Part shown: one piece after another, positions 6,303 through 63,814 of the stretch
Numbering within the stretch: position 1 is the first letter of the stretch
Layout: the number at the start of each line of letters is the position of its first letter
NCBI GenBank assembly: GCA_964019415.1
Contig: OZ025884.1
Span: 3,231,193 to 3,295,192 of the forward strand
Reading direction: 5' to 3'
Source: Ianthella basta
Lineage: Eukaryota; Porifera; Demospongiae; Verongiida; Ianthellidae
DNA length: 64,000 nucleotides
Notes under the pieces: model-generated
Seen by the model: only the letters and a program-made list of their open reading frames with translations
Told to the model about the DNA's origin: nothing
Database searches by the model: none
Program-made: the position numbers and the translations under genes

Positions 6303-9300
6303 CTACGTGAATAAGGGAACAAGGGAGAATGGAGGAACACAAACCACACCTGGCACAGACTACATATGTACTAAAGTGAACAAAAAGTGTATGGGTGACT
6401 TGTATATATAGTTTATACAATTACGATTAAAAGAGACACTGATGAAGTGGCACATGCACAAATCCTTACAGCATGGATAATTATAACAACAAAGAGTGTG
6501 GTCCCATTGACTCACCTTCAGCGGAGAACTGGACCACACTTAGTGACAGTGACTGTAAAGCAGGATTAGAGCTCACAACTGAACATACATGACGGAAACT
6601 GGTGGGGGATAAGGAATGCAATCTGACTGTTGGCGTGTGTAGTTCAGTCAGGTGCTTGCACTTGGTGAGGCAGTGGCAAAGTGCCATGGTGTCAAAAGGA
6701 GTGAGGTACAAATAAAAGGTGAGACAACTGTTCAACTGAGTTACAATGCTCTTGGTGAGAGACTCATTCTGAGACTCAAACAAAGCATGAAATACATACA
6801 AAAGATTAGGACTGTCAATGTTACATTCTGATGGCAGGTCATCACCTGTGGCAAAGATGGCCTCGTTGACCTCTGCTGACTTGAGTCGTGTTAGACCGGC
6901 AAAGAATTTCAGAACCACTGCAAACTTGGGATTGTGGCGGTTCTTCCTCCAGAAGGCAGCTTGTTCTGCCTCGGGCAACAGGGAGAGATGATAGGCAGCA
7001 AAGTACTCCTGCTTCGTGGTGTGGCTGAAGTTAAGCGTAGTTGAAGAGCCATCCTGGTTGGGGTGCAAATGAAGTAGGCCCAGAAAAGATGAATCCTCCA
7101 GGATCTCGTCATGTTTGACTGTGGCATGGAAGACACGACGCACTTCATCTTCTTGGAAGATATAGTCAGGCGGTTCCTGGGTCAGACCATTGAAGGCGAG
7201 GATACCGAAGGATGACGACAGGTGTTTAACATCAGGTGGGAGGTCGGTGAGAGATGAGTCAATTCGGTATACTTTCTTCACTTTCTGTTTCTCTCGAGTG
7301 ATGGTCATTGCAACAGAGGATTTATAGCACTCTGTCATTGTTGCAGGGAATGTTGACCTGCCTGCAACGCCATGCTCATAGACAGAACACAAGATTAGTA
7401 AATTCATTGGTATATAAGCACCTCCCATGAGGTCTGGACGGGCCCTCAGATCGGACAACATAGTCTCCCCTTTGCCCAGTTCACTCTTGAAGAAGTCCTT
7501 CACGTACGACTCCACTGCTGCCTCATCAAATCCGAGAATCTCGTAGAAGACAGTCCTGTGCTCTTGTAGTAGGGGACAACCACCGGGACGAGTAGACACT
7601 ATGAAGTGTGCTTGAGGAAGAAGCCGGCCTTCCAGGAGTACTCCTAGGAGGGATCCCTCGGGGCTGGCCATCAGGCCACGGACCTCATCTGCTCCGTCAA
7701 AAATCATCAACATATTCTGCCCTTCACTCTCCAACAGTGCTTCTGTTGAGGCAGAGCATTTATTCCCTCTAATGTAATACTGAAGAAGTTGTTCCAAGTT
7801 GGCATCACTGTCATGTTTCAGTGCTTCTGACACGGCCTTGTCACGCAGAGGGAAGAACAGGACGAGGGAATAGTCGCTCGGTTCATCGCTGGCCACTTTT
7901 TGACAAAGGTGCTTAAGGAAAGTGGTTTTACCTGTACCGGGCTGCCCAAAAATGATCCTGGTTTGCTGAGGTCCTTTCTTAAGGAAATCACTGACTGTCA
8001 ATTGTTCAGTTATTCCCTCTGACAGTCGTAAGCCACAATTGCGATATTGTTTCAGAAACTCGCTCGGGTCAACGTCTCCCTTCTTTCTCGGTTGAGGGTC
8101 ATTCTGCAGTACAGCTACTTTTGTAAACTGTAGCTCACGTGGCCCTTCTGTGAGGGGCAGCCGCTGGTACCTGCTGTAGGCAAGTCTCCTTGCATGCTGG
8201 AGTGGCTCTGGGAGGACAGGACACACCTCCACCTACAGGGGAAGGGGAGGGGGAGGGGAATGAAATTTTCAGCGAGGATGCAAAATTAATGCACAAAACA
8301 GAATTAGCTTCCCTAGCAAGAAGTATTGCATGACATTGCATAGGCACATTACTACATCATAGAACTGAAAGAAAGGCATTGTCAAGCAATTTCACATAGA
8401 ATACTGTAGAAGTAAATGAAACAGAACATTTCAGCCGTGGAGATCTACTTCAGCTGTCAGCAAAAACAGTTGAAGGCCTCTACAGATATGTACAGTGTGG
8501 GGCATGTAAAGTGTGAGGTGTGTACAATGTGGGGTGTGTACAGTGTGGGGCATGTACAGTGTGGGGCGTGTACAGTGTGGGGCGTGTACAGAGTGGGGTG
8601 TGTACAGTGTGGGGTGTGTACAGTGTGGGGCGTGTACAGTGTGGGGCGTGTACAGTGTGGGGTGTGTACAGAGTGGGGTGTGTACAGTGTGGGGCGTGTA
8701 CAGTGTGGGGTGTGTACAGAGTGGGGTGTGTACAGTGTGGGGCGTGTACAGTGTGGGGCGTGCACAGTGTGGGGTATGTACAGTGTGGGGCGTGTACACA
8801 CATCAGCTTTGTACAAGAGAGTGAATTGCACAGTCAACAGACTTCAATGGCACACTACAGCCACACCAACACTGCAGGTAGTTATCAAAACTCACTTGGG
8901 ACAGCTGGGAGTCCCCTCCACTGCCTTGCCCTGCTGCAACAACCACATTGATCTTGATACACCTGCCTTCGGTGAGTGTGCTCCCAGCAATGACGACTGG
9001 AGACACATCATGGGAAGGCTCTGTGTAAGGGACAGCACACACACACAGAGAGAGAGAGAGAGAAAGAGAGAGAGAATGAGACAGAGAAGATGAGCTATGC
9101 TTTCAATACTGCAAGAGTTACAATACAGTACAGTAATTATACAGTTGTCTGTTATCAGAGAAAGAACACAACTACACTTGCTGCATGATGAAGCCATTCC
9201 TTAAGAGAACAAAGTGTGCAATATCAAGACACAATACAAAGTGTGCAATATTATATCACTTGGGTGTGCATTTGCCTTCTAAGAGCACCCGGCCCATCTA

Positions 9301-10269: not shown

Positions 10270-10311
<42 letters not shown>

Positions 10312-13300
10312 CCTCACCCAGCAACTCGCTCATATGATAGCACACCCTCCTAAACAAACACCATACTCAAACCTAACCAGTACACCCCACATATATTCAA
10401 TAACCACAAAACACAGTGAAATTCGTATACACCCACAGTACACCTGCCCGCACAAATACCACCCACACAATTATCACCAATCTTGCACAGCCAGACTGTC
10501 TGTTAGTCTAGCGTGCAGCCCCATTTCGCCCCTGGGCGCTTGCGTCCGAAGCTAAGCGCCCCCAGGCGGAGAGGGGCTAGCTTGCTAGACTAACTGTCTG
10601 TTCACTCTGACCTGACAAAATGGCAGCCTGCCTACATGAGACTACCCCTCTTGCACAATACTACTAGCCACACCCACAACACTCCTGTACACAATACCTT
10701 TATAATATGCACACTTGGACACCACCCTACAGGGTGTTAAGCACACAAGTAAACCCCTCCAACACACTTACATGTACACACATATACATACACACCTTCC
10801 ATTGCATGCTTCAACTCGTCCAGTGCCTTCTGGAAAAGCTCTAGCACAGCTCTTTCATCAGAGAACCTTCTTCTAAAGTCTTCAGCTGAAGTGAGGAGAC
10901 ACACACATTGCCCTACTTTAGACAGACAGCATGCCCAACATTGACTGCACAGTGTAACGCACAGAAGAGTAGGCACTGAGAGAGCTACTCGGATCAAGCG
11001 TCTTGACCAGCTACACACACTATATACTATGTACTTGCAAACTACATATTATAAGCTGTGAGGTGAGTGTGAGCAGGTGTTCATTGTACACATGTCACAA
11101 GATGTTCATGTTCATAATAGCTTCAGCCTTAATCCTGGTAAAAGTATTCTTGCACAACCAGACGGCCATTTTGTTGACTCTGCTGAGTCAGCACCAAACA
11201 GTGGTCTGCTTATGCTGAAACACAAACACCATCAGTTCAACTTGGATTAGCTGTGAGCACACTTTGGGAGACATTCACATAGGAACACATAAGCTTATTG
11301 TCTTCCAGAGTGTTCTGTTGATACCTTAAGAGTGTTCCACAGCAATGTACTCTATGTTTATATATTATAGCAATTTGGAGTGCATTGAATTTGTCACCCT
11401 AGCATGAGGGTGTGAAGCTCCCAAGGGCAAGTGTGACAAACTAGGTACACTCCAACTTGCTATGATATGAATGGCTTGTATCCAGGTCACACAACACATC
11501 TTTTTTTGATGTGCTGCATGTATTTGAACTAAGGTGCAAGATTACGTACAGGTTTCATATACCATGAGGCCTGGGAGAGCAGTCAAGCCTCAACTATTCT
11601 ACAATTGACCCGTTATTAGCAAATAAATTTGTCAATTGTATTCCTACTAATATAGCAAAGAGCATGATATTTGAGGCAAATGTGCCCTAATGATAATCCA
11701 GCAGTGTACCATTCACAGATCGCTGAAGGGCTTGTGTCTGTATGAATGTGTTTCAAGGAACACCAGGAAGGCCTGCCCAGTATTCTATCTGGACAAGTGG
11801 CAATGCCACAACAGCATGCAGTCTAGTTCCAGTGTACAACTCGCAGTGCTGCAGAAGCAGCTCAAATTCAACCCCTGAAGTAGCCATATCTAGCTTCTTT
11901 GAATCAATCACCAACTTTCACATTAATATTCAAGTCTTCACTGGGCACCTGGGTGCTTGGGGTGATATCACACATCAGGTGCCATGGTACAACTACTCGT
12001 TTGGGTAGTTATAGTATGCCACATGACTGGGCTTCAGATTCGCCCTGCTGTCGGTGCCTTTGATGAGTCACGTATTCAGGACACAACACAGCTTATGCTA
12101 TGTATATAACCCTCTGTAACCTTCCATGGAATTAGTGGAACTCACTGCAAGCTGCTTCCTTCAGTTTGGTCAAATAGCCGTCAGAGTCCTCTTTGGGACA
12201 GTAGGGGCGTAGAGCTTGCTCTATCAGACACTGTACAGCCGCCACACATTGTGTGAATTCATCATACGACACCTCTGTCTTTGAGCGATGGTAGAGTGAG
12301 TTCCTTGACTGCCTCACTTTAACAATGTCTGCCACCTCTGGCTGTGGAAGGTAAACGGGATGAGGTTTGGCTGCCATATACTTTGTAATCTTGTTTGGCA
12401 GATCTCGGTCATTGGCCATTGTTCTACTCACTGCAATAACCCGGGTATCACTGAGTGCTTCTGTTACAACACACTCCACTACCCCCTCAGCAGGTGATGC
12501 TCCCGTGACATTGACACTGAACCCCTCCCAAGTCTTGCAGTCAGTTCTCTCTGACATGCTCACGTCAAAGTAGTCTATGGCACTGCCCTTTCTGCTGCAC
12601 CCTTGGGTCACTGTGGCTTCACATGAAGCATCTGAAGGCTCCATCACTGCGGACAGTGCTGCGGTCAAGATGGTGACGTCCCACTCTGTGGCAGGTTTCC
12701 GTTTCACTGCTGCGCAGGAGAAATCCTGGACTCGTGGATTCTTCTCCATCACAGTGGCTAACCATCTTCTGTGATCCCTACCACCGTCCCATGGCTTACT
12801 GCCAAACCTCTTTTGAAAACCCTTGTTCAGTGTGATGTGGTGTGTTAGCACATCCAGCAGGATCTTGGGCACCAGGTCAGTGAAGATGTACACAAGCTGG
12901 AAGAAGCGAACACTGAACAAGAGACAGGAGAAGAGAAGGAGGTGAAACTGTTACAATGATTGTACAAATTGCTAGGTGGATGTCAAACAAAGGACCTTGC
13001 CCCGTGTTATACACCAGATCCATTTCACACTCCACTGGAGGTAGGTGCAATTTGGCTACACAAGACTGGACCATTGTACAAGTTTGCTGATACTGTTAGT
13101 CCCTACGTATACTAAAAACCAACCGAGGAAGCACCTTCCCCTGTTCAGTGACCTCAGATCTCGAACACATGCTCATTAGCTAAAAGGGAATATGACCAGC
13201 TATAAAGGACAATCAACACCTCCAGCTCCAGCCATCCTATCACAATTTCCCCAACAGTAAGGTCATGTAGTCCGCGTCTATACTCCCGAAAACACTGTGT

Positions 13301-15589: not shown

Positions 15590-15605
15590 TCGCAGTCACA
15601 AGATT

Positions 15606-16412
15606 ATGAGAGAATTCATGTTGCTCGGGCAAGGGCCCGTCCCTGACACGGACTCTGATGACCCTCCGGTAGAAAGGGAAACGGAAGTGGAGGAGATGAA
15701 CAGTACAACCATTGAATCCGATCAAAACGGCTATGAGCAGGAACATCAGCATCACCAGAAACAAACCCATGAGATGCGGGAACAGCGGCAGCAAAAAAGG
15801 CAGCAACAACATCAGCAGGAACAGCAGCAGCCTGTGGATCCCTCCAACTCAATGGGAGACAGGAGAATGGTAACGGTATATATCAGACGAATACCAACGG
15901 ACACCCAGATAAAGGATGTACAACAGCTCATCCAACGTCAGCAAGGGATAGCCGGGGAAGATCTCCATATCACCCAAACAGTCCCAAATGTGGAATTTCG
16001 AGGACGTTGGAAATTCATGAGATGTGAAGGACCAAGAGCAGTTGTACAGCTCTTGTCAAAGGCATGCGATGATGGAAGATTACACTGGAAAATGAGTTCC
16101 AGTCCACCCACATGCCCAAAGCCTTTTTGGGGGACGATCCAACACAAAGAAGAAGGGAGCACCCAGCTCCACTCCCCACACCTATCCAATCATTGCCAAT
16201 TGTGGCAGCTCCACCTTTTCCCCAACCTCATCCTCATCCCCACATCTATCCCCCTCCCCACCATCCATTCTTTGTGTAAGGTCCTCCACCTCTCCCAGCA
16301 TCGCTGCATCCCGGGCACCAACAGCAGATCTGGCCACAACTGTGGCGGGCCGTTTCGGAGCTGGGGCGGCTGCTTGGGGACCCTCTGGCTCCCTCCCACC
16401 CATTGGGGGTAA
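15606..16412 (+). CDS. LINE ORF1-like protein
   Basis: A 268-residue frame with an acidic start, a Gln/His-rich stretch (about residues 38-78) and a segment RMVTVYIRRIPTDTQIKDV that resembles the first strand and helix of an RRM-like ORF1 domain. The second half looks out of frame or low complexity. It overlaps the endonuclease frame at 16342. Function as an RNA-binding ORF1 protein is inferred from its position. Confidence 0.45.
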   Translation: MREFMLLGQGPVPDTDSDDPPVERETEVEEMNSTTIESDQNGYEQEHQHHQKQTHEMREQRQQKRQQQHQQEQQQPVDPSNSMGDRRMVTVYIRRIPTDTQIKDVQQLIQRQQGIAGEDLHITQTVPNVEFRGRWKFMRCEGPRAVVQLLSKACDDGRLHWKMSSSPPTCPKPFWGTIQHKEEGSTQLHSPHLSNHCQLWQLHLFPNLILIPTSIPLPTIHSLCKVLHLSQHRCIPGTNSRSGHNCGGPFRSWGGCLGTLWLPPTHWG

Positions 16413-17712
16413 AGTGAGATGTGGGTTATGGAATGTGAGGGGATTCATAAGTAATGAGCACTGTAGGCTTAGGGAGAGGATTATTAGTGCATCAGGCTTA
16501 GATTTTATTTGCTTATGTGAGACATTCTTAAGAGGTAGTGATGGATTAAATATCCCTGGCTATAGGTGGTTTGGACACAATAGACTAAATATCTCTAGGA
16601 GAGCGGTAAGGGGCTCAGGAGGAGTAGGGATTCTATTTAAGGACAGCTTCTTTGAGGAATATAGTGTAGATATTGTAGACAAAACCCATGAGGATATCAT
16701 GTGGGTTTCATGTACCCATTTCACAAACCTCGAGCATATGCTCTTCATCTGTGCATGTTACCTGCCACCAGCAGCATCAAGCAGGGGGGACAAATCCCAT
16801 GAATGTTTTGACATTTTAAAACAGCAAATCATAGAATTCCAAGACAAAGGAGAAATAATGATCTGCGGTGACTTTAACGCAAGGATTGGAGGCCTAAATG
16901 ACAATGTAGGAGGTATAGCCCTTCCTCAGAGGGAAATTCTAGACACGGTCGCTAACTCACATGGTAGGCAGTTGGTGGACTTCTTCAGAGATTGCGATAT
17001 GGTGACACTCAACGGAAAGTTTTCACCGGAGATTGATAATTTCACGATCCTCTCCACTCTTGGAAGATCGGTTGTAGACTATGCGATAGTGCAATCTTGC
17101 TGTTTCAGTGATTACTGTAATTTTGAAGTAGGAACAATGCTCAATCTACTTGACGACTTAAACATCCCTATAGACTCCTCAATACCATATCACTCCTTAC
17201 TAATGTGGGAATACTCACTAAAATATACTATGTTGTCAGAAAGTCATCAAAATTCAACACAAACTTTGCAGGGTAGTGGAACAACTAACAATGTTCTACA
17301 GCCAAAATCTTTTCGTATTCAGAATGGGAGACATATTTTTAGGCCTGATAGTGATGGTGAAGAAAACATAGACAAACTAATAAAAGAATTAGAAGACCTT
17401 GCCAATCAGAATATGGACATCTCACACACTAGGCTACAGAATAACTATTCCTCATTCTACCACCTTATAGAAAGAGAATTCTCCAGCCACAAAACTCATT
17501 ACAGATCCAGTAAGAAGCCATGGTGGAATTATGAACTTAATTCGCTCAGAAAGGAGGTCAGGCTATCACAAAATGATTGGAACAGATCCAAAAATACTCC
17601 TGATAGAATGAGATTTTGGCAAAGGTACAGGGAAAACAGCGTAAATTCAATCAATGCATTCGAAAGGCAAAACGGAAATTCCTCAGAGAAAAGCAAGATA
17701 ACCTACTTCTGA
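16342..17712 (+). CDS. LINE endonuclease (EEP/APE-like) region
   Basis: Shows the exonuclease-endonuclease-phosphatase pattern: CGLWNVRGF near residue 29, CLCETFLRG near 57-65, the CYLPP strand near 138 and GDFNARIG near 175-182. The final catalytic motif normally containing SDH reads PYHSLL here, so the nuclease is probably inactive. The frame ends by a shift into the RT frame that overlaps from 17616. Confidence 0.8.
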   Translation: MAGRFGAGAAAWGPSGSLPPIGGKVRCGLWNVRGFISNEHCRLRERIISASGLDFICLCETFLRGSDGLNIPGYRWFGHNRLNISRRAVRGSGGVGILFKDSFFEEYSVDIVDKTHEDIMWVSCTHFTNLEHMLFICACYLPPAASSRGDKSHECFDILKQQIIEFQDKGEIMICGDFNARIGGLNDNVGGIALPQREILDTVANSHGRQLVDFFRDCDMVTLNGKFSPEIDNFTILSTLGRSVVDYAIVQSCCFSDYCNFEVGTMLNLLDDLNIPIDSSIPYHSLLMWEYSLKYTMLSESHQNSTQTLQGSGTTNNVLQPKSFRIQNGRHIFRPDSDGEENIDKLIKELEDLANQNMDISHTRLQNNYSSFYHLIEREFSSHKTHYRSSKKPWWNYELNSLRKEVRLSQNDWNRSKNTPDRMRFWQRYRENSVNSINAFERQNGNSSEKSKITYF

Positions 17713-25992: not shown

Positions 25993-28900
25993 CTATGTGA
26001 ATAGGAGAATAGGAACAAGGGAGAATGGAGGAACACATGACACATCTGGCAGCTACACAAAAGGAAACAGGGGGAATTAATTAGTGGTTAAGACATGGGC
26101 ACCAGGGTGTCATGGCATATAAAATACACTCACACTAGGGCACTTCTCATAATGACTGAATGCCCATGTCCTAACCAGCATAGCATTTGTTGCCATGGGC
26201 AACCGATACAATGAGGTACTTAACACACACTATATGCACCACACAAGCAACACAAACTATGTACTAAATAATGCATGGCAATGTATACAATAAGTACATG
26301 GGTTACTTGTACATAATTTATACTTCATTAAAGGAGACACTGATGAAGTAACACATGTGCAACCTCCATAGAATAAGGATGACACCAATAGTTAGTGTGG
26401 TCCATTCACTCACCTTCAGTGGAGAACTGGGCTAAACGTAGTGACAGTGACTGCAAAAGAGGATTGGAGCTCACAACTGAACATACATGATGGAAACTGG
26501 TGTGGGATAAGGAATGTGGGTATATTGGTGTGTGTAGTTCAGTCAGGTGCTTGCACTTGGTGAGGCAGTGGCAAAGTGCCATGGTGTCAAATGGAGTGAG
26601 GTACAAATCAAAGGTGAGACAACTGTTCAACTCAGTTACAATGCTCTGGGTGAGAGACTCATTCTGAGACTCAAACAAAGTGTGAAATAAATACAAAAGA
26701 TAAGGATCGTCAGTGTTACACTTCGATGGCAAGTCACCACCTGTGGCAAAAATGGCCTTGTTAACCTCTGCGGACTTGAGCTGTGTCAGACTGGCAAAGA
26801 ATTTCAGAACCACCGTGAACTTGGGATTGTGGCGGTGTTTCCTCCAGAAGGCAGCTTGTTCTGTCTTGGGCAACAGGGAGAGATGATAGGCAGCGAAGTA
26901 CTCCTGCTTTGGGGTGTGACTGAAGTTGAGTGTACTTGAAGAGCCATCCTGGTCTGGGTGCAAGTGAAGGAGGCCTGCAAAGAACGAATCCTCCAGGATT
27001 TCATCACATTTGATTGTGGTATGGAAAACACGGCGCACTTCATCTTCTTGGAAGATATAGTCAGGTGGTTCTTGGGTCAGACCTTTGAAGGCGAGGATAC
27101 CGAGGGATGACAACAGGTGCTCAACATCGGGTGGGAGGTTGGTGAGAGATGGGTCAATTCGGTATGCTTTCTTTATTTTCTGTTTCTCTCGAGTGATGGT
27201 CATTGCAACAGAAGATTTATAGCACTCTGTCATTGTTGCAGGGAATGATGACCTGCCTTCAATATCGTGATTGTAGATGGAACAGAAGATTGCCAAGTTC
27301 ATTGGTATGTAAGCACCTCCCATGAGGTCTGGACGGGCCCTCAGATCAGACAACATGGCCTCCCCCTTGCCTGGCTCACTCTTGAAGAAGTCCTTCACAT
27401 ATGACTCCACTGCTGCCTCATCAAATCCAAGGATCTCGAAGAAGACTGTCCTGTGCTCTTGTAGAAAGGGGCAGAAACCAGGACGTGTGGTCACTATGTA
27501 GTGTGCTTGGGGAAGCAGTCGTCCTCCCAGGAGTGCTCCTAGGAGGGATCCATCGGGGCTGGCAATCAGGCCACGTGCCTCATCTGCTCCATCAAATAAC
27601 ATAAGTATGTTCTCTCCCTCGCTCTCCAGCAGTGCTTCAGTTAAGGTAGAGCACTTCTTCCCTGCGATGTAGTATCGTAGAAGTTGCTCCAGTCCAGCTT
27701 CACTGGCATCTTTCAGTGCTTGTGACACGGCCTTGTCACGCAGAGGGAAGAACAGAATGAGGGAGAAGTCGCTGGGCTCATTGCTGGCCATTTTCTGACA
27801 CAGGTGTTTGAGGAAGGTGGTTTTACCTGTGCCAGGCTGCCCGAAAATGATCCTGATTTGCTGGGGTCCTCTATGGAGGAAATCATCAACTGTCACTTGT
27901 TTAGACGCTCCTTCTGACAGTCGTACGCCGCAGTTACGGAATCGTTTCAGGAACTCACTCTGGTCTATGTCTCCCTTCTTTCTCGGTTGAGGGTCATTCT
28001 GCAGTACAGCTACTTTTGTAAATTGTAGCTCATGTGGCCCTTCTGTGAGGAGCAGCCGCTGGTACCTGCTGTAGGCAAGCCTCCTTGCATGTTGGAGTGG
28101 CTCTGAGAGGACAAGACACACCTCCTCCTACAAGAGGAGCGGAGGGATGATAAAAAAGTTGGATGCAAAATGAGTATACTTGACAAATTAGATTCACAGT
28201 AATTAATGTCAGTTGATCTAGCCTCTGCTGTACTAGTGGGCTAGTACTCTTCTGGAAGATCTTACACAGTACACGTCCCACACTGTGCACCCAGTTAGTT
28301 GTGAGGTTAAAAAGGCAGCACACCCAACACACAACATGTTCACACTTTGCGACTTTCTGGCCCAAAGACAAAGTTGAGATGTGCCTGGTTTAACACTTCA
28401 ATCAGGAACACTTAGGGTCCATCTTGTGTCTATTCAAGACTCGTAATGTTGTGCCTGATTGTGCACCACAGACATGACCAGAGGACTAGGTAAGCTGACC
28501 AGAAGAAGGCTCTGTCTCTGCTACACCCCACACTGCACACACCCCACACTGTACACATCCCACACTGTACACACCCCACACTGTACAAACCCCACACTGT
28601 ACACACCCCACACTGTACATGTCCCACACTGTACACGCCCCACACTGTACACACCCCACACAGTACACACCCCATACTGTACACGTCCTACACTGCACAC
28701 ACCCCACACAGTACACACCCCATACTGTACACATCCCAGGCCACACTGTACACACCCCACAGTGTACACACCCCACACTGTACACACCCTACACAGTACA
28801 TACCCCATACTGTACACGTCCCACATTGCATGTACACACCCCACACTGTACACACCCCACACTGTACACACCTCATACCGTACACGTCCCACACTGTACA

Positions 28901-30319
28901 CGTCCCACACTGTACACACCCCACACTGTACACACCCCACAGTGTACACACCCACACTATGCACGTCCCACACTGTACACACCCCACGCTGTACACACCG
29001 CACACTGTACACACCTCACACTGTACACACCCCATGCTGGACACGCCCCACACTGTACACACCCCACACTGGCCCAGTTTGGTTCAAACGCAGGTTAATA
29101 AATATGGAATGCTTAAACATGTCTACATGCACTCCTCACTTTGCCATCTAGGTCAGCAGGCTTGTAGTCAGACTGTGCTGCAACCTCTCTCAATCCCTCT
29201 CTGATCTCCCCCTCTACCTCTGTGCTGTGTCTTGCCTCCACTGCATACAAAGGAGACAAACTCTGAGATTACTACTCACTCATGCACGTTGCCCACATAG
29301 GAAATGCCCCACATGCATACTCATTAAATATACCCACTCCATGAAGTTGTAGAGGCTCATTGCTACATTAGGTGAAATCAGAGAGGTAAATTGTGAGCAT
29401 CAGACGTAGCAGATGGCATGCAGGTAATAGACAATTGAAACAGGGCCTTCCAGCCACATAGGCCTTCGTCAGCTGTACAAAAACTGAAAAGTTGCAGTGT
29501 TGGTTATATAGCAAAGATTTGGCGCGAACTAGTGTGTGTGCATGATGTGTAATCACTTAAAGTTAAAATGCGTGGGTGTGGCAGTGCCTAAAGTGGGTGA
29601 CTGTCACACAAATAACATTCTAGTCACTGTTGTAGTTAACGGTGTGGTCTAGCATGGGGAGGGGATTGGTTGAGGATAGGGATCCAGATCATTGGCAGTA
29701 GCAAGCCTCTTTCCAGGTTCATGTTGGGATTCGTTGTTCTAATTTCAATAGCTTTCTCTGTTCTTCTCTGCCAGTAGCCGCTCATTCTTCTCCACTGTGG
29801 CTCCTTTCCAATCAATTGTGTGGTTAGAGTCCTTCCTTACTTCTCCAATTATACCAACTCCACTGCTACTAATTCTACATTGAGACTTGCTATGAACTAG
29901 TGTGGTGACCTGATGTGGCCAAACACTGTATACAATGGAACTACTGCACATATTTATCTGTGTAGCATTAAGGGAAGGGCTATATACAGGGTGGAAACAT
30001 TCCATACCTGCACACTTCTTGAAACTCTCTGCTGCTGATTCCAGCTCATTTGCCCATGCCCTGTAATTGCTGCGTCGTAGCATATCTGTAAATATGGAAA
30101 ACTCTCTGTCACCCTTTCCAAGCAGGATTGTAATGATTTGACCAATTTGGTTCATCTCCCCTGACAGGTCAGTCACACTGCGTGCCTCCATAGTACTCAT
30201 AAAGCCGCCGGCTGGTTTCTGTAACATGTCACAAAGACCTGTCATTAAGATGTGTTCTTTTAGCTTCCCTTGCAATTTCACCAAAGCACTCTTGTTCCAC
30301 TTAGACATTGAAGCTGGAC
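21027..30319 (-). CDS. NLR gene B: CARD-NACHT-LRR receptor, 5' end missing
   Basis: Exons joining in frame: 30319-30008 (CARD), 29240-29140, 28127-26414 (NACHT), 25992-25847, 25629-25488, 24966-24797 and 21299-21027. Phases are 1,0,1,0,1,0, the same downstream series as in A. The CARD exon opens in phase 1, so at least one 5' exon with the start codon is still to be found; retroelements fill 31.0-37.3 kb upstream. The terminal intron (21300-24796) is swollen by several insertions. A role as a cytosolic sensor signalling through CARD-CARD contacts is inferred from the family. Confidence 0.8.
21354..22440 (-). mobile_element. Insertion sharing one terminal hairpin with the element above
   Basis: Sequence absent from the same intron of A, C and D, between ACAAGAAC and AACAAAC. 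It begins with the reversed terminal hairpin of the hairpin-ended family (CGAGTTAAAAACTCG then GGGG...CCCC). The remaining kilobase, including a CA-rich part at 21640-21710, is unlike copies 1-3. Could be a third internal variant or a composite. Confidence 0.4.
22620..23300. repeat. AT-rich dispersed repeat with GCGAAAATTTT motifs
   Basis: Intronic sequence rich in inverted motifs such as AAAATTTTCGCG, CGTGAATNGCT and TATACGGTA at its end. Similar motifs occur in gene D at 58366-58589. Probably MITE remnants. No coding capacity. Confidence 0.35.
23710..24517 (-). mobile_element. Hairpin-ended nonautonomous element, copy 3
   Basis: 808 bp in inverse orientation, flanked by AACAAG at 23704-23709 and 24518-24523. 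The ends match copy 1 (right end here reads as GGAGCTCCAAAGGTGCCCC when reversed), but most of the interior is different. The uninterrupted target is preserved in the other NLR copies. Located in the terminal intron of gene B. Confidence 0.7.
24676..24745. repeat. Foldback palindrome in NLR B intron
   Basis: The best preserved of four: a ~32-bp arm from CTATTTGACACACACATGG to the core CAGTACAG, loop TGATTA, and the matching return arm. Same intron position as in A, C and D. Confidence 0.65.
25145..25266 (-). CDS. Possible alternative terminal exon (hydrophobic tail), NLR B
   Basis: Opens in phase 1 after AGTACAG and encodes E-VESNLVNVLLAITALLFA followed by a further hydrophobic stretch and a stop after about 39 residues. 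Equivalent to the candidates in A, C and D. The downstream half differs from A by frame-changing indels, but the first 22 codons are conserved. Confidence 0.4.
26414..28127 (-). CDS. NLR B NACHT exon
   Basis: A 1,714-nt exon. Acceptor CTTGTAG opens with EEVCLVLSEPLQHARR; the donor is GTGAG. Walker A GQPGTGKT near residue 96, Walker B LMLFDGADE near 177, sensor VTTRPG. Conserved with A, C and D along its length; all ATPase motifs intact. Confidence 0.9.
28520..29071 (+). repeat. 16-bp minisatellite in NLR B intron
   Basis: About 34 copies of CCCCACACTGTACACA with variants, the complement of the unit in gene A. It occupies the intron between the linker and NACHT exons. Open frames across it on both strands are artefacts. 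One or two more units stand alone at about 28265-28292, separated by ~230 bp of sequence like that of gene C. Confidence 0.9.
29140..29240 (-). CDS. NLR B linker exon between CARD and NACHT
   Basis: A 101-nt exon, phase 1 in and phase 0 out, with acceptor TATGCAG and donor GTGAGG. Encodes EARHSTEVEGEIREGLREVA and a short acidic end. Gene D has the same exon at 63814-63726, four codons shorter. Confidence 0.7.
29342..29856 (-). mobile_element. 5'-truncated Penelope-like element fragment
   Basis: About 515 bp present in gene B but absent at the equivalent place in D (63911-63920). Flanked by ACTCCA at 29336-29341 and 29857-29862. On the minus strand it encodes HTIDWKGATVEKNERLLAEK, then after a one-base shift AIEIRTTNPNMN. 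This resembles the C-terminal part of the GIY-YIG nuclease of Penelope-like retroelements. Family assignment is from pattern memory. Confidence 0.5.
30008..30319 (-). CDS. NLR B CARD exon
   Basis: A 312-nt exon, phase 1 in and phase 1 out (acceptor TTCACAAG, donor GTATGG). It encodes about 100 residues in CARD order: KLQGKLKEHI (helix 1), LCDMLQKPAGGFMS (helix 2), EMNQIGQIITILLGKG (helices 3-4) and EFSIFTDMLRRSNYRAWANE (helices 5-6). CARDs recruit partners by homotypic contact, for example adaptor proteins or caspases. The call is by eye; a death-effector relative is less likely. Confidence 0.65.
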
Positions 30320-30517
30320 CTTGTGAAGGAGAACAACACATAAAATGCATGGACAGCTAATACACATACAACATTATACAGACTCAGTCTAGCCATTGTA
30401 ACAGCATATACATATACTGTGCAGACACTGGAAGAAAAATAAATGAAATACATCATCATTTCTTCAGATAGAAATCATAGATTAAATTTGCAATGAAACA
30501 TTTAAGCCATATTCAGT

Positions 30518-30835
30518 TTTAGGTGAGGGGGTTGTGGGGAGGGAAAGAAGTCGTAATTGGACTGAGGGGGTGAGGGGTTGAGGACGAGGTGAGGGGGTGA
30601 GGGGGTGAAGGTAGGGGACTGAGTGGGTGTGGGGCTGAGGGGTAAGGGGTTGAGAGGGAGGGAACTGAGAGCGTGTGGGACTAAGGGGTGATGGACGAGT
30701 GTGAGGGGGCAAAGAGAACTGAGGGCACAGAGGGGGTGTTGGAACGAAGAGGTGAGGGATGGAGGGAGTGGATGGGAGACTGAGGGGTGAGGGAATGCTG
30801 GAAGTGATCGAAGGGACAAGGGGTGGGGGTGGGGA
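30518..30835 (+). repeat. G-rich degenerate tandem repeat
   Basis: Irregular copies of a GAGGGGGTGAGGGG-like unit, strongly G-biased on the plus strand, upstream of the CARD exon of gene B. Long Pro/Ser-rich frames on the minus strand are by-products of composition. Confidence 0.7.
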
Positions 30836-38760: not shown

Positions 38761-39779
<1,019 letters not shown>

Positions 39780-43131: not shown

Positions 43132-43138
43132 ACTTGTT

Positions 43139-48616: not shown

Positions 48617-51600
48617 CTATGTGAATAGGGATAGAGGAACATGGGAGAATGGAGGAACACAAAACACACCTGGCAGCTATGCAAAGGTATACAGGGGGAA
48701 TTAATTAGCGGGCATAAGGGTGTCATGGCATATACAATACACTCACACTAGGGCACTTGTGATAATGACTGAATGCCCATGTTCTATAATATAACCATGC
48801 AGTATAGCAGTCACTGCCATGGGCAATGGAACAACACAGACTATTTATGTGTATGGGTCGCATGTACAATGTCATAATTTATACTTTGTTGAAGGAGACA
48901 CTGGAGTGACACACACACAACTTTCTTACAATATGGATGACACCAACAATTTGTATGGTCCATTCATTCACCTTTAGTGGAGAACTGGCCCACACGCAGT
49001 GAGAGCAACTGCAAAAGAGGATTGGAGCTCACAACTGAACATACATGATGGAAACTGGTGGGGGATAAGAAATGGAAGAGTGATGTGTGTAGTTCAGTCA
49101 GGTGTTTGCACTTGGTGAGGCAATGGCAAAGTGCCATGGTATCAAAAGGAGTGAGGTACAAATCAAAGGTGAGACAACTGTTCAACTGAATGACAATGCT
49201 CTTGATGAGAGACTCATTCTGAGACTCAAACAAAGTGTGAAATACATATAAAAGATAAGGATTACCAGTAAAACACATTGATGGCAGGTCACCGCCTGTG
49301 ACAAAGATGGCCTCATTGACCTCTGCTGACTTGAGCCGTGTTAGACCGGCAAAGAATTTCAGAACCACTGCAAACTTGGGGTTGTGACAGTTCTCCCTCC
49401 AGAAAGCAGCTTGTTCTGCCTTGGGCAACAGGGAGAGATGGTAGGCAGCGAAGTACTCCTGCTTTGTGGTATGGCTAAAGTTAAGAGTGCATGAAGAGCC
49501 ATCCTGGTTGGGATGCAAGTGAAGAAGGCCTACAAAAGATGAATCCTCCAGGATCTCGTCACATTTGACTGTGGCATGGAAGATACGTCGCACTTCATCT
49601 TCTTGGAAGATATAGTCAGGTGGTTCCTGGGTCAGACCTTTGAAGGCAAGGTCACCGAGAGATGACAACAGGTGCTCAACATTGGGTGGGAGGTCAGTGA
49701 GAGATGGGTCAATTCGAGATGCTTTCTTCACCTTCTGTTTCTCTCGAGTAATGGTCAGGGCAACAGAGGATTTATAGCACTCTGTCATTGTTGCAGGGAA
49801 CGTTGACTTGCTTGCAATACTGTGACTGTAGATGGAACAGAAGATCGCCAAATTCATTGGTATATAAGCACCTCCCATGAGGTCTGGACGGGCCCTCAAA
49901 TCAGACAACATGGCCTCCCCTTTGCCTGGCTCACTCTTGAAGAAGTCTTTCACATATGACTCCACTGCTGCCTCATCAAATCCAAGGATCTCGTAGAAGA
50001 CTGTCCTGTGCTCTTGTAGTAAGGGACACCCACCGGGACGTGTGGACACTATGAAGTGTGCTTGGGGAAGCAGTCGGCCTTCCAGGAGTGCTCCTAGGAG
50101 GGATCCCTCGGGGCTGGCCATCAGGCCACGTGCTTCATCTGCCCCATCAAATATCATGAGCACATTCTCACCTTCACTCTCTAGTAGGGCTTTGGTTGAT
50201 GTGGAGCATTTATCCCCTCTAATGTAGTATCGAAGAAGTTGTTCCAAGTTGGCATCACTGTCGTCTTTCAGTGCTTGAGACACGGCCTTGTCACGCAGAG
50301 GGAAGAACAGTACGAGGGAGAAGTCGCTTGGTTCATCATTGGCCACTTTCTGACACAAGTGTTTGAGGAAAGTGGTTTTACCTGTGCCAGGCTGCCCGTA
50401 CATAATCCTGGTTTGCTGGGACCCTCTTTGGAGGAAATCACCAACTGTCACTTGTTTAGACGCTCCTTCTGACAGTCGCACGCCGCAGTCACGGAATTGT
50501 TTCAGGAACTCACTCTGGTCTACATCTCCCTTCTTTCTCGTTTGAGGGTCATTCTGCAGTACAGCTACTTTGGTATACTGTAGCTCATGTGGCCCTTCTG
50601 TGAGGGGCAGCCGCTGATACCTGTTGTAGGCAAGTCTCCTTGCATGCTGGAGTGGCTCTGGGAGGATAGGACACACCTCCACCTACAGGGGGAGGAGAGG
50701 CGAGAGATAATAAATATTAGCGCCGACACACAATTACTACATTTGAACAGAATTGGTTCCTTGACAAGAGCTGGAATGATAGACATCAATCAGTGGATAT
50801 ACCTACCAACCTGTTACACTAGTATTAGTGTCTCAATGGCAGGGGGACTGAAGCGCTATTGATATCAATGGCAAACAATGAGCACATACCCTTCAGCTGT
50901 TCCACAAAGATGGAACAGCCAAAAACAGCCTTTCTGATCTTCCTGTAACACATCAGTGTAGCATAGGGTGTCTGGTTTAACACTTCAATCAGGAACACTT
51001 AGGGCCAATCTTGTGGCTATTCCAGACTCGTAATGCTGTGCCTGATTGTGCACCACAGACATGACCAGAGGACTAGGTAAGCTGACCAGGAGAAGGCTCT
51101 GTCTCTGCTACACCCCACACTGTACACATACACCCAGCCACCCAACCAACAGGCACTGCCCACTCACTGTAACAAGATCCACTGGTCTCCACTTCAGCAG
51201 GTCTTCAACATGGTTACTAAGTCCCGCCTCCTTCATTGCCTCCAGAAGGGTGCTCCATGTCACTTCCTCCGAGGTGTTGCCAGCATGCCAGTAGCAAAGA
51301 GCTTGGAAGAACACTTCCTCAACATTGTGTGGGTTGCTCTCAAGCAGAGACTCCACCTTTGCATTGGGTATGCCCAGGTACGTGCAAATGGAGCGCCACT
51401 TTTGGCCGGCCACAGAACACACATGACGTCGAAGGTCTACCTCGCTTGGCTTAGACCTCAGGAACACTGCAGTGGAAGGAAAGGCACATGGTACCTTGTG
51501 CTAAAGACCACACACACACGCACACACACTACACAAAATGCCACAAACACTAAAATTCCATGGAAGTCTGTTATTAGTCTCGTCCCCAGCCCACTTCCGG

Positions 51601-53225: not shown

Positions 53226-54685
53226 GAGATGTTGAGGAATGAGAGAGACAGTGGAAAGTTGAGGAATGAAAGAGACAGTGGGACACTGAGGAATGAAGGG
53301 GACAGAGGGATGTTGAGGAAGAAGGGAGGATGTGGGACATTGAGGAGTGAGGGGAACAGTCGGATGCTGAGGAGTGAGACATTGAGGAGTAAGGGGGACA
53401 GTAGGATGCTGAGGAGTGAGGGGGACAGTGGGATGCTGAGGAGTGAGGGGGACAGTGGCATGCCGAGGAATGAGGGGACAGTGGGATGTTGAGGAGTGAG
53501 GGGGACAGTGGGATGCTGAGGAATGAGGGGGACAGTGGGATGTCGAGGAGTGAGGGGGCCAGTGGGACGTTGAGGAGTGAGGGGGGGCCAGTGTGACGTT
53601 GAGGAGTGAGGGGAACAGTGGGACAGTGAGGAGTGAGGGGGAAGGTGGGATGGTGAGGAGTGAGGTATGTTGAGGAATAAGGGGGACACTGGGACATTGA
53701 GGAATAAGGGGGACACTGGGACGTTGAGGAGTGAGGGGGACAGTGAGACGTACGTTGAGGAGCGATGAGGACAGTGGGATGCTGAGGAGTGATGGGGACA
53801 GTGGAACGATGAGGAATGAGGGGGATAGTGGGACGTTGAGGAGTTAGGTGGACAGTGGAACGCTGAGGAGTGAGGGGGACAGTTGGACATTGAGAAGTGA
53901 GGGGGACAGTGGGATGATGAGGAATGAGGGCGACAGTGGGATGCTGAGGAATGAGTGGGACAGTGCATAGGACGTTGAGGAGTGAGGGGGACAGTCGGAC
54001 GCTGAGGAGTGAGGGGGACAGTGGGACGTTGAAGAGTGAGGGGGCCAGTGTGACATTGAGGAGTGCCGGACAGTGGGACGGTGAGAAGTGAGGGGGAAGG
54101 TGGGATGGTGAGGAGTGAGGTACATTGAGGAATAAGGGGGACAGTGGGACATTGAGGAATAAGGGGGACAGTGGGACGTACGTTGAGGAATGAGAGGGGA
54201 CAGTGGGACGTACGTTGAGGAGTGAGGGGGACAGTGGGACGCTGAGGAGTGATGGGGACAGTGGGACGATGAGGAATGAGGGGGATAGTGGGACGTTGAG
54301 GAGTTCGGGGGACAGTGGAATGCTGAGGAGTGAGAGGGACAGTCGGACATTGAGGAGTGAGGGGGAATGTGGGATGATAAGGAATGAGTGGGACAGTGCA
54401 TGGGACGTTGAGGAGTGAGGGGACAGTCGGATGCTGAGGAGTGAGGGGGACAGTGGGACGTTGAGGAATGAGGGAACAGTGGGATGCTGAGGAAAGAGTG
54501 GGACAGTGCATGGGATGTTGAGGAGTGAGGGGGACAGTCGGACGCTGAGGAGTGAGGGGGTCAGTGGGATGTTGAGGAGTGAGGGCGACAGTGGGCTGCT
54601 GAGGAATGAGGGGGACAGTGGGATGTTGAGGAATGAGGGGGAAAGTGGGACGTTGAGGAGCGAAGGGGACAGTGGGACATTTGCA
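53226..54685 (+). repeat. 27-bp minisatellite, about 54 units
   Basis: Units of the pattern GAGGAGTGAGGGGGACAGTG plus GGATGCT, with diverged variants and higher-order blocks (about 53640-53940 and 54110-54370 resemble each other). Since 27 is a multiple of three, two minus-strand frames stay open for about 490 and 513 codons as degenerate 9-residue repeats. Probably not genes. It lies upstream of the Pro-rich exon of gene C. Confidence 0.9.
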
Positions 54686-56104: not shown

Positions 56105-56265
56105 CTTGAGATGATTCTGGACGAGGTTCTGATGGAAGCTGAGCTAGTGGTAGTGGTTTGTGGTCATCTTGTGGGTATGGGTCAACAGGGTGTGATTTGT
56201 CCTTGGTTGGATTCACTGCCTTCTTTTGATTTTTACTAGAGCATCCTTCAATTGGAGTGTGAACA
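56105..56265 (-). CDS. Candidate Pro-rich exon upstream of NLR C
   Basis: Opens after ACATTGCAG in phase 2 and closes at GTAACTG in phase 1. Encodes SHPVDPYPQDDHKPLPLAQL and a Pro/Glu/Ser-rich end, similar in style to the exon at 52650-52548. It needs an intervening phase 1-0 exon to be joined. May belong to gene C or to nothing. Confidence 0.3.
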
Positions 56266-60900: not shown

Positions 60901-61032
60901 TGAGGGTGAGATGCAACTCCTCCAATTGCCCGTGGTTAACCACTTCAGCCAGTGCCTCTGAAGTGCAGCTTTTGTGCACTGTTAGCTTCAACTTCTTCAG
61001 TGACCCAGCAGCCTCACACAATGTCCTGGCAT
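57993..61032 (-). CDS. NLR D LRR exons and terminal exon
   Basis: Exons 61032-60890 (one codon shorter than in A-C, donor GTACTT), 60639-60498, 59881-59718 and 58271-57993. Units include SLKKLKLTVH, QLEELHLTLI, LRTLAIFEVD and VLREVTLDWVPEELVVSV. The terminal exon is 93 codons, with the insertion shared with B. Confidence 0.8.
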
Positions 61033-63814
61033 CTATGTGTATATGGGAAGAGGAACAAGGGAGAATGGAGAAACACAAGACACGTCTGGCAGCTACACAA
61101 AGGGATACAGGGGGAATTAATTAGTGGTTAACATGGGCACCAGGGTGTCATGGCATATAAAATACACTCACACTAGGGCACTTCTCATAATGACTGAATG
61201 CCCATGTCCAAATATAACCAGAATAGCATTTGTTGCCATGAGCAATGGATACAATGGGGTACTTAATACATGCTATGTGCACCACACAAGCAACACAGAC
61301 TATTTATATACTAAATAATGCATAGCATTGTATACAATAAGTACACAGGTCACTTGTACATAATATTATACATCATTAAAGGGGACTGATGAGGTGACAC
61401 ATGCACAACCTCCTTACAATAAAGATGACACCAACAGTTAGTGTGGTCCATTCACTCACCTTCAGTGGAGAGCTGGGCCACAAATAGTGACAGTGACTGC
61501 AAAAGAGGATTGGAACTCACAATTGAACATACATGATGGAAACTGGTGGAGGATAAAGAATGTGATACACTGTCTGATGTGTGTAGTTCAGTCAGGTGCT
61601 TGCACTTAATGAGGCAGTGAGAAAGTGCCATGGTGTCAAAAGTAGTGAGGTACAAATTAAAGGTGAGACAACTGTCCAACTGAGTGACAATGCTCTGGGT
61701 GAGAGACTCATTCTGAGACTCAAAAAGAGTGCGCACTACAAACAAAAGATAAGGGTTGGCAACGTTACAAATTGATGGCAAGTCACCACCTGTGGCAAAG
61801 ATGGCCTTATTGACCTCTGCTGACTTGAGCTGCGTTAGACCAGCAAAGAATTTCAGAACTACTGCGTACTTGGGATTGTGGTGGTTCTTCCTCCAGAAGG
61901 CAGCTTGGTCTGTCTTGGGCAACAGGGAGAGATGATAGGCAGCAAAGTACTCCTGCTTCGTGGTATGGCTGAAGTTCAGCGTGCTGTGTGTTGAGTAACC
62001 GGGTTCCTGGCTGGAGTACAAGTGGAGGAGACCACCCAAGGAGGATTCAACCACCAAGTTGTTGGGTGAAATTGAGAAGATGTGCCGTACATCAGCTTCT
62101 TGGAAGATGTAATCAGGTGGTTCCTGGATGAGACCATTGAAGGCGAGGACACCGAGGGATGACAACAGGTGCTTAACATCTGGTGGGAGATCAGTGAGGG
62201 ATTGGTTAATTTGGAAATCTCTCTTCTCATGCTTTCGTTTCTCTCGAGTGACCATCCTGGCAATGGAGGATTTGTAGCACTCTGTCATTGTTGCAGGGAA
62301 TGACCTGCCTGCAGCACCATTTTCATAGACAGAACAGAAGATCAATAAATTCATTGGTATGTAAGCACCTCCCATGAGGTCTGGTCGGGCCCTCAGATCA
62401 GACAACATGGTCTTCTCTTCGCCTGGCTCACTCTTGAAGAAGTCTTTCACATATGACTCCATTGCTGCCTCATCAAATCCAAGGATCTCGTAGAAGACAG
62501 CCCTGTGCTCTTGTAGAAGAGGGCAGCTACCGGGACGAGTGGACACTATGAAGTGAGCTTGGGGGAGCAGACGACCTCCCAAGAGGGCTCCTAGGAGGGA
62601 TCCCTCGGGGATGACCATCAGGCCATGTACTTCATCCACCCCATCAAATATCAGGAGCACATTTTCTCCTTCGCTCTCCAGCAGTGAGTCAGTTGAGGTA
62701 GGGCACTTCTTCCCTGCAATGTAGTATCGTAGAAGTTGCTCCAGTCCAGCTTCACTGTCGTCTTTCAGTGCTTGTGACACAGCCTTGTCACGCAGAGGGA
62801 AGAACAGGATTAGGGAGAATTCGCTTGGTTCATTGTTAGCTGCTTTCTGACAAAGGTGTTTGAGGAAAGTGGTTTTACCTGTGCCAGGTTGCCCGTAAAT
62901 TATTCTGGTTTGCTGGGGACCTTTGCAAAGGAAACTATTGACTGTCACTTGTTGAGCCACTCCTTCTGACATTCGTATGCCACAATCACGGAATCGCTTA
63001 AGGAACTCAGTCTGACTCATGTCTCCCTGTTTTCTCGTTTGAGGGTCATTCTGCAGTACAGCTACTTTTGTAAACTGTAGCTCACGTGGCCCTTCTGTGA
63101 GGGGCAGCCGCTGGTACCTACTGTAGGCAAGTCTCCTTACATGTTGGAGTGGCTCTGGGAGGACAGGACACATCTCCACCTACAGGGGGGGGAAGGGGAG
63201 GGGTGATAAAAACTAGCCAGGATTCATCATTGATACACTTGAATGTGGCATATATTGATGATCAATGCTGGATAATGGGCTACGTCTATGTATATCCATC
63301 ACAAATTAAACACTTCTGGTTTCAACAGAAGCAGACAAGGGGATGCTGCAGTCAACAAGACTGGCCAGTTGTTGAAATGGGCCTGTTGTTTGCAGTGAGA
63401 CACTAATACCACTGTAGCAGCAGTAAGTGCAATGACCAGTGATTATGTCAATCAATCTAGCCTTAAGTGAGCTAGTGCTCTTCTGGGAGAGCTTACACAG
63501 TACACACCCCACTCTGTACGCCACACACTGTACACGCCCCACACTGTACACGTCCCACACTGTACACACCCCACACTGTACACGCCCCACACTGTACACA
63601 TCCCACACTGTACACACCCCACACTGTACACACTCCACACTGTACATACCTAACACTGTACTAACCCCACACTGTACACACCCCACACTGTACACATCCC
63701 ACACATGTCTACATGCACTCCTCACTTTGCCATCAGGGTCAGCAGACTGTGCTGCAACCTCTCTCACTCCCTCTCTGATCTCACCCTCGACCTCTGTGCT
63801 GTGTCTTGCCTCCG
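57993..63814 (-). CDS. NLR gene D: NACHT-LRR receptor, 5' part beyond the window
   Basis: Exons joining in frame: 63814-63726 (linker), 63179-61460 (NACHT), 61032-60890, 60639-60498, 59881-59718 and 58271-57993. Phases 0,1,0,1,0, as in the other copies. The linker exon is that of gene B and opens in phase 1, so a CARD exon is expected upstream. The last 90 bases of the window match the intron next to the CARD exon of B, ending about 60 bp short of it. The first LRR exon ends at an unusual donor, GTACTT, where the others have GTAAGT; splicing efficiency may differ. Confidence 0.8.
58366..58589. mobile_element. Small TIR element in NLR D terminal intron
   Basis: About 224 bp with ends AAGCTCTAAT and ATTAGAGCTT, inserted in the otherwise conserved stretch GGCTTCAGGGGTA / GGTTGCTGATGG. 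Interior AT-rich with GCAAAATTT-like motifs. Probably a MITE; the target duplication is unclear. Confidence 0.6.
59596..59670. repeat. Foldback palindrome in NLR D intron
   Basis: Core AGTACAGTGATTACTGTAAT with partly matching CACACA/TGTGTG arms; one arm has diverged. Same intron position as in the other three genes. Confidence 0.55.
60109..60212 (-). CDS. Possible alternative terminal exon (hydrophobic tail), NLR D
   Basis: Opens in phase 1 after GGTACAG and encodes E-VESNLVNVLLAVTALLFA, then Cys/Leu/Pro residues and a stop after about 33 residues. Matches the candidates in A, B and C. Confidence 0.4.
61460..63179 (-). CDS. NLR D NACHT exon
   Basis: 1,720 nt, phase 0 in and phase 1 out. 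Walker A GQPGTGKT, Walker B LLIFDGVDE and sensor VSTRPG are intact. It is the most diverged of the four, with changed segments such as KRKHEKRDFQINQS and SISPNNLVVESSLGGLLHLY where A-C agree with each other. Confidence 0.9.
63496..63705 (+). repeat. 16-bp minisatellite in NLR D intron
   Basis: About 13 units of CCCCACACTGTACACA type between the linker and NACHT exons, in the same orientation as in B. Confidence 0.9.
63726..63814 (-). CDS. NLR D linker exon
   Basis: 89 nt, phase 1 in and phase 0 out (acceptor TATTCAG, donor GTGAGG). Encodes EARHSTEVEGEIREGVREVA and ADPDGK. Homologous to 29240-29140 in gene B. Confidence 0.7.

Follow-up and report, generated by a model that had tools for sequence, protein, structure and literature searches.

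An intronic 16-bp minisatellite as a probable joint for N-terminal module exchange in an NLR subfamily of the sponge Ianthella basta

Four NLR Genes and Their Intronic Arrays

The window, i.e., the whole stretch of DNA analysed here (C17:3231193-3295192, 64,000 bp), is part of a 209-Mb assembly of 96 contigs derived from one animal of Ianthella basta. It contains four genes, A, B, C and D, all encoded on the minus strand, and their NACHT exons lie at 6481..8232 (A, delimited as a stop-to-stop ORF), 26406..28127 (B), 48964..50682 (C) and 61452..63179 (D). The Pfam NACHT domain (PF05729) is matched far over the cut-off in A (E 9.8e-21), B (E 2.5e-19) and D (E 1.1e-21), which assigns these genes to the NLRs by their NACHT domain, and the protein encoded by the NACHT exon of C is 85% identical to that of B. 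The 5′ end of the exon in A is a phase-0 acceptor, TGTAG|GTGGAG.

The intron just 5′ of the NACHT exon carries a 16-bp repeat unit, TGTACAGTGTGGGGYG, in all four genes. A sequence-only reading of this DNA had claimed about 20, 34, 1 and 13 units in A to D, and this is borne out by Tandem Repeats Finder (period 16) with 19.4 units in A (8489..8798), 33.8 in B (28523..29071) and 13.2 in D (63495..63704), together with the single unit of C (51111..51126). In B, C and D the G-rich strand of the repeat coincides with the coding strand (minus strand); the array of A has the opposite orientation to its gene, as had also been claimed, with the G-rich strand on the plus strand and a C-rich coding strand. 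The G skew of the coding strand amounts to 0.6-0.8, inverted arrays excepted. The arrays of the window genes lie 0.26-0.43 kb from the NACHT exon and begin 31-103 bp 3′ of the predicted 5′ splice site (counted by hand), the lower value being that of D, in which the junction differs from that of the other genes with the same type of module. Altogether the window contains 64 matches to the unit (≤3 mismatches) against 0.71 expected from dinucleotide shuffles, and none of 100 shuffles scored as high. The single unit of C is insignificant by count; its position is exactly between the X-type far edge and the NACHT-side edge common to other genes. Four more isolated matches (2-3 mismatches; 21776, 28274, 42228 and 46350) are, given their small number, mostly chance.

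Beyond the array, on the side of the protein N-terminus, the genes carry different modules, termed X, Y and Z; splice sites and exon coordinates of these modules are predicted and hand-counted. In gene A the last exon before the array belongs to module Z (8896..9020, minus strand; donor CAA|GTGAGT, phase 0) and has a near-copy at locus L028 and a relative at L020. Upstream of it, an ORF at 12132-12950 (minus strand) shows a weak match to HEPN_DZIP3 (E 0.018, under the cut-off) and is perhaps the remainder of module Z. Gene C carries module X with a Death-domain exon (51168..51466, minus strand; donor ACA|GTGAGT, phase 0) within an ORF (51108-51500) matched by Pfam Death at E 2.3e-05, and 16 close near-full-length copies of this exon exist in the genome. 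In gene B a flank of 143 bp (28381..28523) follows on the NACHT side of the array, and a 265-bp block of module Y (29076..29340) adjoins the array on the other side with the edge AACCAAACT|GGGCCAGTG. This block contains a linker exon (29140..29240; donor AAA|GTGAGG, phase 0) and is followed by an ORF with a CARD-like exon (29745..30356; Pfam CARD E 0.012, under the curated cut-off) and, at the upstream edge of the module, by a C-rich (CCCCCTCA)n minisatellite (30563..30689, called by Tandem Repeats Finder), all on the minus strand. Gene D has a Y-type linker exon (63726..63816, minus strand; 5′ end approximate).

Further repeats and mobile elements lie between the genes. A 1.4-kb G-rich minisatellite upstream of gene C (53233..54678) has a 27-bp unit, GTTGAGGAGTGAGGGGGACAGTGGGAC, which is unlike that of the 16-bp array and has a core similar to the TGAGGGGG repeat of gene B. 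A LINE-type element at 32271-35126 (minus strand) consists of one long frame with endonuclease and reverse transcriptase domains, and a second one at 16096-20333 (plus strand) is split into several frames, one piece of which has an endonuclease domain.

Genome-Wide Distribution of the Unit

At ≤1 mismatch the unit occurs 2564 times in the genome, against 8 occurrences of a reversed control. The sequence-only reading would have been contradicted by a unit equally common at random genomic sites; this is not the case, as 1775 of the 2564 units fall inside 29 NACHT loci (the window genes, L009-L032 and L038, of which L038 was chosen for its array and the other 28 were drawn from the list of a NACHT protein search). 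The window together with L009-L039 holds 1845 units, including 34 in the flanks of arrays on C18 (L033-L036) and 36 in L037, and the remaining 719 include the interior of the C18 arrays, C17:3.18 Mb and C2. The protein search gave 76 scored copies of 480 candidates and a Pfam family search 102 of 469, all 102 above the curated cut-off, so that the genome probably contains hundreds of NACHT exons. Among the scored copies 28 are at least 78% identical. The sequences of 27 of these were read, leaving out C17:3394914, whose array match lies 14,913 bp from that of C17:3380001 with equally spaced NACHT exons and which therefore looks like a copy of the latter. The proposed search for the unit beside other NACHT exons turned out positive: in 26 of the 27 copies an array (one unit in C) lies 0.25-1.4 kb before the exon in the same intron, the exception being L025 with its array 4.9 kb away. 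No unit at ≤3 mismatches was found in the 10 kb of L024, with a NACHT exon of 75% identity, or in the 1.5 kb before the 77% NACHT exon of L046. Among the copies examined (L024 and L046 being those of ≤77% identity) the array belongs to one NACHT subfamily. It consists of head-to-tail 16-bp units in numbers from 1 to ~266 among related loci, i.e., it is a minisatellite (VNTR), and it is inverted in A and L028.

The unit is not restricted to these genes. The idea that the arrays mark NLR genes only is refuted by a 39-copy array on C13 (L037, C13:5650500-5656500) beside PIP5K-like exons, ~0.6 kb outside the outermost PIP5K exon read; the stretch read contained no NACHT exon and no shared NLR flank. 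An array on C12 (L039) was rejected as a copy of the 16-bp repeat, since it is built from another unit (0 matches at 1 mismatch). Large arrays form a second cluster at C18:6.25-6.46 Mb (L033-L036, L040, L043 and L044), with a Death-domain ORF ~6 kb from one array and a Gypsy-like pol ORF, recognised by eye, adjoining another. The stretches read around the C13 and C18 arrays contained no shared NLR flank. Arrays for which no such flank was found, such as the one beside the PIP5K-like gene, imply that the repeat alone is insufficient for a module junction. A lone array at C17:3183000-3190000 (L041/L042) is bordered on either side by sequence of A type (80% identity over 65 bp and 85% over 111 bp), within which no NACHT exon was found as far as the flanks were read. 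At L032 (C1:9528198-9534197) the array is split by a ~0.9-kb insert resembling a small DNA transposon with inverted ends (TGCGCATGTGGGACATGTCC), ~2856-3788 bp from the NACHT end, and L020 (C17:2600089-2610088) is a double cassette in the order Z exon, inverted 132-unit array, X exon, forward 47-unit array and NACHT exon. The 110-kb contig C54 may be an allelic contig, i.e., a copy of C17.

N-Terminal Modules and Their Reading Frame

The modules beyond the array are mutually non-homologous: 15 loci carry the X Death exon, 9 the CARD-like Y block and 2 the third module, Z. All 15 X and 9 Y modules lie ≤56 bp from an array. As predicted from sequence, the donors in X, Y and Z are of phase 0 and so is the acceptor at the NACHT exon, so that any joint within the array would keep the frame. 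The same exons are found on different backbones with compatible predicted phases and with breakpoints in an intron, which is the pattern of exon shuffling.

The Y block occurs at 18 genomic places, nine of them at array genes (89-100% identity) and nine elsewhere (76-84%; six on C8 and one each on C10, C15 and C18). Eight of the nine outside copies start 41-49 bp from the array edge, and the sole outside relative that reaches the array-side edge lies at C15:1532601-1532828 (82%, query 1-246). At L045 on C8, the one outside locus that was read, the Y block with its linker exon (83.7% over 282 bp; 83% to B and 83.7% to L012, L016 and L018) stands in front of a NACHT exon of another family, whose protein matches that of B at 32% over 271 aa (Pfam NACHT, E 3.2e-18); the intron between them is short and contains no array unit. 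For X, distant Death exons (47-48%) are located 2.2-2.9 kb before NACHT relatives of 69-71% at C17:2.20 and 3.74 Mb, which suggests that X is probably the older partner of this NACHT subfamily and Y the guest. Short remnants of the Death exon, comprising its first 43-46 residues at 85-89% and with at least one stop each, occur at C17:2420254, 2541177 and 2596609 and at C54:28438, ~6-10 kb upstream of cassettes.

Array Edges and the Position of the Homology Switch

The flanks of gene B resemble different genes on the two sides of its array, in agreement with the sequence-only reading. On the NACHT side B is 95% identical to C over 143 bp (~28381-28523), a flank common to most X and Y genes, and it has no match to C on the far side; on that far side B is 89% identical to D over 226 bp (~29117-29342), and the best stretch between B and D on the NACHT side reaches just 78% over 77 bp. 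The edges themselves are conserved. In 21 of the 24 X and Y loci the NACHT-side edge TAGCAGAGACAGAGCC, either unchanged or with slight changes, is found at the array end or a few tens of bases from it (exceptions: L017, L025 and D). The far edge ACT|GG(G/A)(G/C)CAGTGTGGGG is common to 8 of the 9 Y loci, and X genes have a common far edge of their own, GAGGAGTCTGTTGGTTGG, with differences. X and Y far edges are both found joined to the one NACHT-side edge, almost base-exactly, which places the X/Y switch inside the array.

Breakpoints that did not coincide with the array would have spoken against the proposal, and their position was assessed by a pairwise homology profile over 380 ordered pairs of 20 genes (without the identical copies L013 and L014, L025, L038, A, L028 and the unlabelled L019, L024 and L031). 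Homology through the NACHT-side flank ranges from 0.77 to 0.92. Across the array it falls from 0.86 to 0.00 in pairs of different class and passes from 0.85 to 0.80-1.00 in pairs of the same class. In all 172 between-class ordered pairs with a homologous NACHT-side edge (of 192 between-class pairs) the switch coincides with the array, where the value of 0.00 is partly by construction since the classes are named from the far flank. The sharpness of the drop and the unchanged NACHT side are not by construction.

A second drop, from 0.76 to 0.43, is seen in same-class pairs 400-450 bp (~430 bp) upstream of the array, where the module exon has its 5′ side. Upstream, the Y block is bounded by C-rich sequence, which takes the form of an 8-bp (CCCCTCAC)n minisatellite in three genes (B, L018 and L032) and of a related 17-bp array for L015; no array was called in the C-rich stretch of L012, L016 and L021. 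Both ends of one cassette swap are visible in L016 and L010, which have 2.9 kb in common at 95%, ending ~50 bp from the X exon; the stretch that follows, up to the array, measures ~1.06 kb and contains Y in L016, and measures ~0.4 kb and contains X in L010.

Module Labels, Linkage and Mosaicism of the NACHT Exon

In a tree of the NACHT exons of 29 genes, 26 of them labelled X, Y or Z and 14 of its 24 forks open, the module label changes eight times (minimum 2), compared with a mean of 9.3 for shuffled labels, 50 of 200 shuffles being as low. Its starred branches force at least four changes for X and at least three for Y. One example is the sister pair L016 (Y) and L022 (X), with a support of 100/98, in which the NACHT side is 94-99% identical by segment despite the different modules. 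The module label does not follow the NACHT tree, X and Y alternating on it at random. A tree of the NACHT-side flank (22 genes, poorly resolved) has six changes, one of them forced by starred branches, and flank distances do not track the module class, with r = -0.12 and means of 0.148 for pairs within a class and 0.116 for pairs between classes.

The NACHT exon is itself a mosaic, and conversion within it weakens the NACHT tree. In pairs with L011, L015 or L032 the third quarter of the exon is 77-81% identical in pairs that are ~90-97% identical around it, and the distances of the two exon halves correlate at r = 0.37. For neighbouring segments within a class, the distance correlation across the array (near versus far flank) is r = 0.76 for Y and 0.71 for X, the X value resting on three outliers and falling to -0.28 without C, L029 and L030; between two segments inside the NACHT exon (E3 and E2) it is 0.25 for X and 0.0 for Y. 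Within a class, linkage over the array is not clearly below that at other positions, and exchange is general throughout the family and not confined to the array.

Composition and Turnover of the Arrays

The array of L015 (~266 units) looks like a fusion of two, with the joint inside the array. Its units 3-48 align to units 11-56 of L016, likewise a Y gene, 38 of them exactly and with a score of 154-155; shuffled arrays reached at most 19.2 (60 shuffles of the pair) and 30.6 (40 shuffles of mixed pairs). Five L016-type variants are evenly distributed over the thirds of the L016 array (12, 10 and 10), and in L015 the first 51 units contain them 15 times and the other 215 not at all; six L015 variants are absent from these first 51 units and from L016 and occur 59 times in the other 215. 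These counts are descriptive, as the marker variants were chosen from the same table in which they were counted. The apparent fusion, in which the first ~48 units are L016-like, is known from one assembly, and long arrays are hard to assemble. Later turnover of one part of the array could mimic it; this would require the loss of every L016-type variant from 215 units.

L015 is the one composite array found, and in most other arrays turnover has gone too far for them to be read. When the arrays were searched for homology of unit order, only L011/L013, L012/L014, L015/L016 and A/L028 stood out; A and L028 (19 and 24 units) share unit order with a score of 49.3 against a maximum of 36.1 in 200 shuffles, and L012 and L014 are identical. 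L011 and L013, copies 25,349 bp apart, have flanks of 100% identity and arrays of 172 and 169 units, and for L012/L016, with 98.2% and 96.7% identity on the two sides, the unit order did not exceed shuffles (score 10.4). As arrays vary while flanks are near-identical, arrays change faster than their flanks.

Interpretation and Alternatives

We favour, with some reservation, the explanation that the intronic array serves as a shared recombination substrate between NLR genes with unrelated N-terminal modules and is one of several sites of exchange. The array is probably one of the joints for module exchange, since the repeat is common to genes with different modules and one array appears fused; indications of its use as a substrate come from this one case, L015, and from the near-exact edges in both combinations. 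Mechanistically, the minisatellite would provide a patch of homology between paralogues whose N-terminal modules differ, and as the last homology before the modules diverge it would be important for module swaps. Modules would then be swapped, added or deleted by ectopic germline exchange between such paralogues, one or both ends of which fall in or beside the array, the route being template switching, unequal crossover or gene conversion. The joint between Y and the array, which is identical in eight of nine Y loci (L012, L014, L015, L016, L018, L021, L032 and B), probably arose once, and its subsequent spread by exchange would fit the data better than a single old swap.

The sequence-only reading had proposed recombination or gene conversion at the minisatellite and a candidate hotspot for the shuffling of N-terminal exons. 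The former holds in part: the label unlinked to the NACHT tree, the switch at the array and the apparently fused array speak for it, and exchange takes place elsewhere as well. The hotspot as stated, with an excess rate of exchange at the array, is not supported, given the mosaic NACHT exon, the second break ~430 bp upstream and a linkage across the array that is not clearly weaker. Crossovers in the NACHT-side flank or exon would equally swap modules, and we count this against our own explanation, together with the single composite array, the weakly resolved trees, the arrays on C13 and C18 and the C15 relative of Y that extends to the array-side edge, which slightly lowers our confidence as regards the origin of the Y edge. 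A less probable reading, to which we would give perhaps a third of the weight of the favoured one, takes up this point: the array would be a passive landmark, exchange would proceed everywhere in the homologous part, and the switch would be seen where the homology of X and Y ends. The divergent third quarter of the NACHT exon, the low correlation of its halves and the within-class linkage across the array, which is not clearly reduced, agree with such a landmark; the apparently fused array of L015 with its joint inside the array, the different modules of L016 and L022 on near-identical NACHT sides, and L009/L023, in which 97-100% identity in NACHT exon and flank changes to 92.4% on the far side of the array, argue against it.

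A bolder form of the substrate explanation, doubtful at present, is that the arrays act as dedicated switch regions in which R-loop- or G4-prone breaks exchange Death, CARD-like and other modules at a raised rate, in the germline and perhaps in the soma. Rather improbable is the opposite role, in which the array acts as a barrier to strand exchange and N-terminal modules and NACHT parts are homogenised separately. Homology tracts indeed end at or in the array, L015/L016 included, and such a role is proposed in print for the GA microsatellites around Sp185/333 genes (PMC3091723, in the part of the article available); a barrier alone would not account for the alternation of X and Y on one NACHT side or for a fused array. 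We consider a single old swap followed by ordinary duplication, with X and Y lineages each of single origin, to be very improbable: the shared Y/array junction is what it predicts, whereas the eight label changes on the NACHT tree, at least four of them forced, and a clustering no better than that of shuffled labels contradict it, and only scrambling of the tree by gene conversion of NACHT exons alone would rescue it. That the array is kept for expression as an RNA-level or transcriptional element (splicing, R-loop) with module exchange being incidental has next to nothing in its favour beyond its proximity to the predicted 5′ splice site and its coding-strand G skew, as 1 to ~266 units and the inversions in A and L028 argue against a strict requirement.

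Comparison with Known Systems

KIR are vertebrate Ig-type receptors. In their cluster, an intron-1 minisatellite has been named among the sources of gene conversion, crossing over and domain shuffling (PMC5103432, in the part available), and the likeness to the sponge genes lies in clustered immune genes with a minisatellite in their first intron; in the excerpts consulted this is the nearest idea in print. Unlike in KIR, the sponge array separates non-homologous signalling modules from the NACHT exon, and one array reads as a fusion. In another clustered immune family of an invertebrate, the Sp185/333 (SpTransformer) genes of the sea urchin, the unit that is exchanged is likewise bordered by tandem repeats, which are proposed to promote or to limit exchange (PMC3091723, PMC5103432, both in part); there GA/GAT microsatellites flank whole genes, whereas the 16-bp minisatellite is placed between exons of one and the same gene. 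Zebrafish NLR-B30.2 genes resemble the sponge genes in that N-terminal parts are re-paired with different NACHT groups, via exon shuffling together with gene conversion (PMC4852459); in contrast to the array described here, a minisatellite has no mention in the main text of that article as far as accessible. In Dysidea avara, the NLRs with CARD and those with Death domains, as two classes, are reported to fall into separate clusters phylogenetically (PMC12909245, from partial text), unlike the mixing of X and Y on the NACHT tree observed here. Further comparison literature comprises PMC5894186 and PMC2408603, seen in excerpt. Among the titles and beginnings of abstracts consulted from an open-licence library no minisatellite linked to NLR module exchange was found, and absence is not proven thereby.

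Exchange of an exon block next to intronic tandem repeats is also known from the immunoglobulin class-switch regions and the intronic hotspot of mouse MHC Eb. Class-switch repeats are G-rich on the coding strand, as are the arrays described here, which are known from one assembly; class switching is somatic and requires AID. Re-pairing of sensor and signalling domains in large invertebrate NLR families has mostly been inferred from protein trees. In the genes studied here the joint itself is visible in DNA, with conserved edges, modules predicted to be in frame and unit variants that record an array fusion, and module exchange becomes directly measurable via long reads across one short intron. 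The repeat seems to permit the trading of non-homologous modules with the reading frame unharmed, as judged from predicted splice sites. With intron minisatellites of KIR, microsatellites of Sp185/333 and exon shuffling of zebrafish NLRs known already from the sources consulted in part, the sponge NLR array represents a variant of these systems.
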